From Sulfurospirillum sp. (GTDB taxonomy: Bacteria; Campylobacterota; Campylobacteria; Campylobacterales; Sulfurospirillaceae), in the NCBI GenBank assembly GCA_026988125.1, contig JALSLU010000052.1:1-32919 (forward strand): DNA of 32,919 bases, in the 5' to 3' direction. The notes beneath the pieces were generated by a model, which worked only from the letters and a program-made list of their open reading frames with translations, had not been told where the DNA came from and did no database searches. The translations under genes and the position numbers were made by a program. This document shows positions 14,128-32,919 of the stretch, in pieces. How positions within the stretch are numbered: the stretch's first letter is position 1; every line of letters starts with the position of its first letter.

Positions 14128-14544
14128 CTAACTCCTATTTGCAAATAACATCATAGATACTTCATCCATATCTAACTGCTCTTGTCTTTTTAATTTTTTC
14201 ATAAACTCTTCAAAGTCCCTTCCCTCTAAGTACTTCATCTTCTCAAACTCTCTTAAGGCATTTTTATATTTTTGTTGAAGCTGAGCTACCTCTTGGTTGG
14301 AAATTTCATAAGCTTTTTCTACTTCACTCATCTCTTTTCTTAAAATTGACAAATTTTCTCTATACACATTGTACAGCTGTATATTTCCCTCCTTTGGAGC
14401 TATCTGTGAGCTTATCTCCTCTTTTAAGGATTCTAACTTTTTTTTAAGCTGAGTGTTTTTATGTCTAGCCTTTGCAAGATGGGTTTCTACCATATCCATA
14501 TGCTGTTTTTTTATCTTTACTATTGGGGTAAATTTGCTGGTCAT
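14128..14544 (-). CDS. fliJ: FliJ-like flagellar export coiled-coil protein
   Basis: A 138-residue protein that is almost wholly alpha-helical coiled coil, without signal or membrane segments. Size, charge pattern and the C-terminal EFMKKLKRQEQLDMDEVSM fit the FliJ family, which works in the cytoplasm at the flagellar type III export ATPase. Sequence conservation in FliJ is low, so the call rests on architecture and on the neighbouring MotE-like gene, 2 bp downstream. The ATG is preceded by AAAGGAGACAGT, which is also box B of the repeat element described upstream. Confidence 0.65.
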   Translation of the reverse strand: MTSKFTPIVKIKKQHMDMVETHLAKARHKNTQLKKKLESLKEEISSQIAPKEGNIQLYNVYRENLSILRKEMSEVEKAYEISNQEVAQLQQKYKNALREFEKMKYLEGRDFEEFMKKLKRQEQLDMDEVSMMLFANRS

Positions 14545-14547
14545 TTT

Positions 14548-14621
14548 ACTGTCTCCTTTAACTTGAGCCTTGTGCTATGCACTCTCTGTGAGAAAGCCCA
14601 AGTTAAATTCCTCTCACTAAA
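14548..14621 (-). repeat. modular repeat element, copy 1 (immediately before fliJ)
   Basis: On the minus strand the order is box A TTTAGTGAGAGGAATTT (14621-14605), a long stem (arms 14604-14593 and 14571-14560, beginning AACTTGGGCTTT), and box B AAAGGAGACAGT (14559-14548), which is the fliJ Shine-Dalgarno sequence. The stem contains two smaller possible hairpins (CTC/GAG and GTGC/GCAC), giving a three-way junction. GGCTTT begins 7 bases after box A, as in the other two complete copies. Confidence 0.75.
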
Positions 14622-14653
14622 GCACGAGCTGACGCTCTGCAAGAGTTTTTTTA

Positions 14654-14703
14654 ACTGTCTCCTTTCTTAGGGGTAAAGCCCCTAAGAAATTCCTCTCACT
14701 AAA
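14654..14703 (-). repeat. modular repeat element, copy 2 (between purA and fliJ)
   Basis: Minus-strand order is box A (14703-14687, identical to copy 1), an 8-bp stem CTTAGGGG/CCCCTAAG (14686-14679 and 14673-14666) extendable by three A/T pairs, and box B AAAGGAGACAGT (14665-14654). No start codon follows box B, so this is an orphan ribosome-binding-like site. Copies 1 and 2 look like an old tandem duplication. The rest of the 205-bp purA-fliJ gap (14704-14749) has only an AT-rich stretch and a small ACC/GGT hairpin with a GCAA loop. Confidence 0.75.
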
Positions 14704-14749
14704 ATACAACCTTGCGGTCATATGAGAAACTATATATTTTACTACTTCT

Positions 14750-32638: not shown

Positions 32639-32752
32639 TTATCCTTGTCTCTGTTTATGTTTAGGATTAGTACAAATGATTCTTACAACACCTCTTCTTT
32701 TAATCACTTTGCACTTATCACACATTTTTTTGACACTTGGTCTTACTTTCAT
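32639..32752 (-). CDS. rpmJ: 50S ribosomal protein L36
   Basis: A 37-residue L36 that begins [20 protein letters not shown] and ends with PKHKQRQG. It has the zinc ligands of the zinc-binding form: CDKC, one Cys in IICTNP, and the following His. AAAAGGAGAAATTAA ahead of the ATG is the ribosome binding site and is also box B of the repeat element. rpmJ before rpsM is the usual order. Confidence 0.96.
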
Positions 32753-32757
32753 TTAAT

Positions 32758-32804
32758 TTCTCCTTTTAGCTAGGCAAAGCCTAGCAAAAATTCCTCTCAC
32801 TAAA
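32758..32804 (-). repeat. modular repeat element, copy 3 (immediately before rpmJ)
   Basis: Minus-strand order is box A TTTAGTGAGAGGAATTT (32804-32788), the stem-loop GCTAGGC/GCCTAGC (32785-32779 and 32775-32769) with loop TTT, and the box B core AAAGGAGAA, the rpmJ Shine-Dalgarno sequence. The distance from box A to box B is 21 bases, as in copy 2, and GGCTTT is at the same offset. The stem sequence differs from copies 1 and 2 but is fully paired. Confidence 0.75.
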
Positions 32805-32919
32805 GCTTTCGCCTTGCGAAGAGTGAATACATTTTAAACTAATTCCTCTCACTAAAGCTTTCGCCTTGCGAAGAGTGAATACATTTTAAACTAATTCCTC
32901 TCACTAAAGCTTTCGCCTT
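32789..32919 (-). repeat. 52-bp tandem repeat upstream of rpmJ, open at window end
   Basis: Box-A-like AATTCCTCTCACTAAAG starts at 32789, 32841 and 32893 on the plus strand, an exact 52-bp period, with about 2.5 identical units before the window ends. Each unit, read on the minus strand, has box A, then AGTTTAAAATG, then a hairpin TTCGC-AAG-GCGAA, then the next box A. Each full unit holds a 10-codon ORF, MYSLFARRKL (32832-32800 and 32884-32852), whose TAG lies inside the next box A. The perfect identity suggests recent amplification. Copy number beyond the window is unknown. Confidence 0.85.

Follow-up and report, generated by a model that had tools for sequence, protein, structure and literature searches.

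A dispersed two-hairpin RNA repeat carrying a Shine-Dalgarno sequence in gene leaders of Campylobacterales

Two unrelated genes, fliJ and rpmJ, lie in one 32,919-nucleotide stretch of a Sulfurospirillum sp. draft genome (contig JALSLU010000052.1, hereafter the window), and each appears to take its translation signal from a copy of the same repeat. What is this repeat, and how did it come to stand before such genes? A first-pass annotation of the window had described three copies. A covariance model of the element (R1, see below) recovered all three as complete copies where they had been placed, on the minus strand (Table 1). Their extents had been drawn too short, since the full element starts further upstream, where hairpin P1 precedes the conserved box. 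The exact box TTTAGTGAGAGGAATT occurred five times in the window. When up to three mismatches were allowed, nine matches were obtained against 1.39 expected, and none of 100 shuffles reached nine.

Table 1. Element copies, their parts and the genes that they lead in the window.
Feature	Position	Strand	Evidence and remarks
Element copy 1, complete	14548..14640	-	R1 match, E=2.1e-13; directly precedes fliJ (ATG at 14544)
P1 hairpin, copy 1 (GCAGAGC GTCA GCTCGT)	14624..14640	-	Direct reading; helix covaries
Conserved box GCTTTAGTGAGAGGAATTT, copy 1	14605..14623	-	Box search and direct reading; alignment columns near-invariant
P2 hairpin, copy 1 (TTTAACTTGGGC ... GCTCAAGTTAAA), module TTTCTCACAGAGAGTGCATAGCACAAG in loop	14557..14607	-	Direct reading
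Shine-Dalgarno (SD) GGAGA, foot of copy 1 P2	14552..14556	-	7 nt before fliJ ATG
fliJ, led by copy 1	14128..14544	-	ORF; Pfam PF02050, 4e-16
Element copy 2, complete (box variant ATTTTAGTGAGAGGAATTT; P2 CTTAGGGG/CCCCTAAG)	14654..14723	-	R1 match, E=3.3e-11
Element copy 3, complete	32755..32822	-	R1 match, E=1.1e-10; directly precedes rpmJ (ATG at 32752)
rpmJ (ribosomal protein L36), led by copy 3	32639..32752	-	Pfam PF00444, 3e-20
Tandem array, 52-bp period, P1+box units without canonical P2	32789..32919	-	TRF, 100% matches

The element is about 70 nt long and consists, from 5' to 3', of hairpin P1, the box GCTTYAGTGAGAGGAATTT, hairpin P2 and the sequence AAAGGAGA. P1 has a core of 4 bp, mostly with an AC/GT foot, and falls into three classes, of which TCTCGCC...GGCGAAGC was the commonest across genomes. 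The box is an unpaired stretch between the two hairpins. P2, a hairpin of 12 bp, begins with TTT, ends with AAA and has a TTT loop; the SD sequence GGAGA follows it. The motif GGCTTT, earlier taken as one invariant unit, was indeed present and proved to be composite: GGC forms the upper end of the 5' arm of P2, and TTT is the P2 loop. The 5' end of the element (ACAGAAG, ACGACC or TCTCGCC) is not complementary to its 3' end, P1 and P2 being separate hairpins, and terminal inverted repeats of the kind that define a MITE were not found in the element.

In the window, AAAGGAGA ends copies 1 and 3 at 7 nt upstream of the fliJ ATG and 6 nt upstream of the rpmJ ATG, which agrees with its earlier reading as the ribosome binding site of these two Pfam-confirmed genes. 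Copy 2 is the upstream partner of copy 1 in a tandem pair, with no gene directly after it. Copy 1 holds an extra module of 23-27 nt within its P2 loop (14569-14595). This nested module (CTCNNAGAGAGTG...CACAAG), a repeat inside a repeat, follows GCTTT in the P2 loop or in the box and was also seen at loci L009, L011, L024, L070, L202 and L228; it occurs in three species, and the P2-loop module of copy 1 recurs in L011, L024 and L070. Copy 3 is the final unit of the tandem array with a 52-bp period (Table 1). The window contig (C52) ends within this array, and contig C53 (G000:C53:1-150) starts in the same array and continues into sequence like the infA-rpmJ spacer of relatives. The two contigs are therefore probably adjacent, and the array would then comprise at least 4-5 units.

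Each variable arm had been said to be matched by its own complement. To begin with, 22 copies were aligned, with the P1 loops padded with N, and pairs were counted for the stated structure. In this alignment 98.7% of cells were paired, and two-sided changes numbered 79 as compared with 26 in shuffles and at most 28 in slid controls. R1 was built from these 22 copies. Fitting 107 distinct matches from many genera to R1 gave 94.8% paired cells and 541 two-sided changes (164 when shuffled; slid controls at most 117), and in the cells of the P1 core and P2 pairing reached 97%, in accord with the claim. The element ranks as a structured cis-acting RNA by its compensatory changes, which exceed both column shuffles and slid controls. 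We also considered a further helix, P0, between an upstream CUCUC and the GAGAG of the box. It is attractive in the copies within RNase P RNA and in one P1 class; its pairing residues barely vary there, so that P0 is a candidate helix.

Searches against Rfam 15 gave no gathering-level match in the window, and six element loci scanned down to E<=1 matched nothing but 16S rRNA. A riboswitch or other known RNA was accordingly rejected, and the family had rightly been left without a name.

The position of the element relative to genes was inspected at 99 loci. A start codon lay 2-5 nt past the end of the model in 67 of the 99, a sample drawn mostly from the top of the score lists with a model that contains the SD, so that SD-less relatives are under-represented. 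Chance would give this spacing in a fraction of a percent of cases, as estimated from gene density. We conclude that the element supplies the SD at these starts, and the preference for positions just before start codons, which the first-pass annotation had made a test of its proposal, is strong. In ten further matches the start codon lay at 17-21 nt, in many of them after a second SD-like sequence. Copies in RNase P RNA, in the 16S leader and inside arrays are not used as SD, and before ddl of one congener (G005) the element's GGGGAC precedes the ATG by about 38 nt. The genes led in the window's own genome (G000) include recR, clpB, thrB, a KH-domain protein, guaB, trkA-like genes, torD, nadC, fliJ and rpmJ; these names were judged from the sequences, fliJ and rpmJ alone being confirmed by Pfam.

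The reading that we favour, with a probability of about 0.6, is that of a dispersed small repeat in mRNA leaders which has spread through Campylobacterales by copy insertion and by local tandem duplication, and which is retained chiefly where it acts as a portable translation-initiation leader. The element would be transcribed as part of the leader, and P2 would close on itself in the mRNA through its UUU...AAA foot. GGAGA would then stand unpaired just past the 3' side of the helix, correctly spaced from the ATG and shielded from upstream context. Folding predictions are consistent with such an arrangement: the mean unpaired probability of the SD was about 0.73 over 78 elements, and predicted SD accessibility was about 0.70 for 67 element-led starts versus 0.56 for 24 native leaders of the window (p=0.03). 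Because a self-contained P2 is predicted to leave GGAGA open, the element would act like a portable insulated ribosome-binding site, and this would explain its insertion before essential genes. A new copy would add to or replace the SD of the gene and leave expression unspoiled. An RNA thermometer was rejected on the same predictions, since it needs the SD in a helix and only the AAA preceding GGAGA lies within P2.

Dispersed structured repeats are known and are usually viewed as passengers or as donors of promoters or terminators. REP elements are intergenic hairpin repeats made of a single palindrome with a GTAG/GGAG foot; they are biased towards 3' regions and have a RAYT (Y1 transposase) partner. 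The present element is likewise a hairpin repeat dispersed in intergenic regions; unlike the REP/RAYT system, its copy number is not tracked by Y1 genes. The closest in behaviour are BOX elements and TAACTGA repeats. BOX, RUP and SPRITE of Streptococcus pneumoniae are short, modular, highly structured interspersed repeats that are co-transcribed with genes; the copy number of an internal module varies in BOX, and for BOX and RUP terminal inverted repeats and probable mobilisation by IS transposases have been described (PMC3049150). The Campylobacterales element is also short, modular, structured and interspersed; as judged from that published description it differs from BOX and RUP in lacking terminal inverted repeats and in spanning an order. 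It also places an SD at a fixed spacing from the start codon, which BOX and RUP are not reported to do (PMC3049150). The TAACTGA direct repeats of marine Beggiatoaceae are dispersed and tandem, lie mostly a few nucleotides from start codons of functionally unrelated genes, and have been proposed to act in translation in organisms where canonical ribosome-binding sites are rare (PMC4679880). Our element shares the dispersal, the tandem repetition and the nearness to start codons of unrelated genes. TAACTGA is a heptamer, in contrast to a 70-nt two-hairpin unit carrying an SD, and in neither TAACTGA repeats nor BOX is an SD part of a covarying pair of hairpins. What sets the element apart from other dispersed structured repeats is what it delivers and how precisely. 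We found no description of it in the literature; intergenic candidates from Arcobacter sp. L (PMC6429828, e.g. HRC-4) may overlap with it.

If the favoured reading holds, housekeeping genes across an order (rpmJ, recR, guaB, clpB, secY, pheT) would have been handed a correctly spaced ribosome-binding site, and such a family would be a route to uniform leaders among unrelated genes. Its copies would form a natural library for testing the effect of an insulated SD. Rfam lacks this family, which can be modelled from the present alignments.

Box and SD are near-invariant across the alignments, and conservation is far higher in the 19-nt box than in the stems. Because this exceeds what a passive spacer requires, the main rival is a binding factor: a trans-acting post-transcriptional regulator, either an RNA-binding protein or a small RNA, would recognise the element by its single-stranded box and govern an order-wide regulon by masking or exposing the SD. 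The box carries a second SD/CsrA-like motif, GAGAGGA, about 25-30 nt upstream of the SD, its GAGAG can in many copies pair with an upstream CUCUC to give predicted alternative folds, and tandem copies would multiply the binding sites. We nevertheless regard a regulator as possible rather than probable. The downstream genes have no pathway in common, the SD is mostly predicted to be open, and a copy number that runs from 0 to 99 among related genomes is hard to square with an essential regulon. Moreover, every box match with 0-1 mismatches in the own genome lies in an element, whichever strand is taken; no independent locus for an antisense RNA is therefore seen there, and an antisense sRNA to the box was rejected.

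The proposal of a dispersed element was tied to the existence of other copies with paired stems, and many were found across the genome. The own genome (1.87 Mb, 176 contigs), whose named relatives are Sulfurospirillum arcachonense and kin, gave 51 R1 matches. The T form of the box occurred in it exactly 12 times, and GTGCTTYAGTGAGAGGAATT 30 times when up to one mismatch was allowed. Both the number of copies and the length of arrays are underestimates in this draft, since many of its contigs break within arrays (C44, C82, C84, C123, C131, C146, C152 and C159 end inside them). Many of these copies stand in tandem arrays with an 81 bp period, the last unit giving the gene its SD. Each of the six genomes of the genus had 6-53 matches. 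In the family 34 of 44 genomes had matches, with up to 99 in one related genus and just 0-4 per genome in the Sulfurospirillum-like genus g4. Across Campylobacterales 115 of 399 genomes and 27 of 87 genera were positive, counts in which SD-less relatives are under-represented because R1 includes the SD. Among the genomes of a phylum-wide sample 49 had matches, and all of these belonged to this order. A plasmid of Sulfurovum mangrovi, outside the family, carries a copy 10 nt before an annotated gene.

Comparison of orthologous sites revealed gains within a single genus. The infA-rpmJ spacer contains the element in four congeneric genomes (G000, G002, G004 and G005) and a remnant in G003, and no element was found there in G001 of the same genus or in 19 leaders from other genera. 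In the G003 leader (L236) P2 and the SD are all that remains (TTTTTCTAGGTTTACCTAGTAAAAAGGAGA), which suggests that this is the part retained once P1 and the box are lost. At the ruvA-ddl junction no element was present in G000, G001, G003 or G004, whereas G002 carries one P1 class and G005 another. These single-locus gains fit the earlier suggestion of a mobile 5' UTR cassette. They also largely refute the reading of the element as an ordinary leader or riboswitch-like RNA that a few genes have inherited vertically. Such a leader could account for the element being retained before argF, fliJ and 16S in several species; it conflicts with empty rpmJ and ddl sites in close relatives, with gene sets that differ almost wholly between species, with tandem arrays and with the lack of an Rfam match, and we hold it to be very improbable.

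The flanks offer indications of how copies are inserted. In G005 the last 24-25 bp of ruvA are repeated 3' of the element, before the ddl start. At 87 single loci the two flanks of a given copy, 5' and 3', had a mean similarity score of 16.2, as against 15.0 for cross-paired copies (permutation p=1e-4), and 8 loci scored 24 or more (1.97 expected). Duplications are clear in about ten loci only, their flanks are A-rich, and their length varies from about 10 to 25 bp, so that the fixed-length target-site duplication of a MITE was not seen. Insertion with a 10-25 bp target duplication is thus supported statistically but not proven. Several duplications start at the SD of the gene itself and extend over its ATG, and relic ATGs are often seen upstream; this matches insertion at, or template switching through, an SD sequence. 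From the empty sites and the target duplications we infer that the element is mobile, and it may have been copied by template switching or insertion through homology at SD sequences.

Y1 transposase (PF01797) was absent from G000 (51 copies), G009 and G014, all high-copy genomes, and present in low-copy g4 genomes, and reverse transcriptase (PF00078) was absent from G000, G001, G002, G004, G005 and G013. Mobilisation by RAYT or reverse transcriptase was rejected because neither gene tracks copy number, and these scans yielded no mobiliser. Phage carriage was also rejected: two IMG/VR box matches were coding-sequence coincidences without P2, and no phage match was obtained. A combined scheme, in which a mobile cassette with target-duplicating insertion at start-codon regions rewires the leader-sharing genes in each species and a dedicated trans-acting factor reads the box, seems to us improbable. 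If true, it would mean a post-transcriptional regulon built by transposition across an order and present also in RNase P RNA and before 16S rRNA.

The same flanking duplications, together with the variable copy number, tandem arrays, nested insertions and contig breaks at arrays, are what a selfish MITE-like repeat without host function would leave; it would sit before start codons because other insertions are harmful, and its SD would merely spare the gene. Against this speak the compensatory changes that keep the stems over many genera, the precise ATG spacing and the persistence of old copies. In the low-copy g4 genomes matches occur at four places: the argF leader, the grpE-dnaK spacer (weak), the pre-16S rRNA leader (weak) and the inside of RNase P RNA. 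The argF placement is conserved in eight Sulfurospirillum genomes and that in RNase P RNA in nine, so these copies have persisted, and we think a purely selfish repeat improbable too.

The RNase P copies (L137, L138, L139, L140, L143, L148, L151 and L152 in g4; L136 in g3) have the P1-box-P2 order intact with AAGAAGACAGTTTAATGG after P2. The surrounding gene was confirmed by Rfam in 8 of 8 scanned cases, and the ninth, L148, was read by eye. From its place in the sequence we take the host position to be probably the variable P12 stem-loop (E. coli numbering). In several of these copies the GAGAGG of the box pairs with an upstream CCUCUC. Vioque is said to have described, in 1997, cyanobacterial STRR repeats within rnpB. 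Here too a dispersed short repeat lies in a variable stem-loop of RNase P RNA; STRR are short tandem units of unrelated sequence and are not known to carry SDs.

In the own genome one copy (L013/L076, C24:104-172) runs right up to the mature 5' end of 16S rRNA as placed by Rfam, and pre-16S copies were also seen in some Sulfurospirillum relatives (L145, L153, L157). An rRNA antitermination box, a candidate prompted by L013, was rejected: the box fits boxA poorly, and the element adjoins the mature 16S 5' end. Copies within RNase P RNA and before 16S rRNA show that essential RNAs tolerate the fold. In the fliJ leader, lastly, the element was observed in three g1 species and one g5 species (L031, L034, L163 and window 14548-14723) with different P1 and P2 arms, and this site is therefore either old or repeatedly used.
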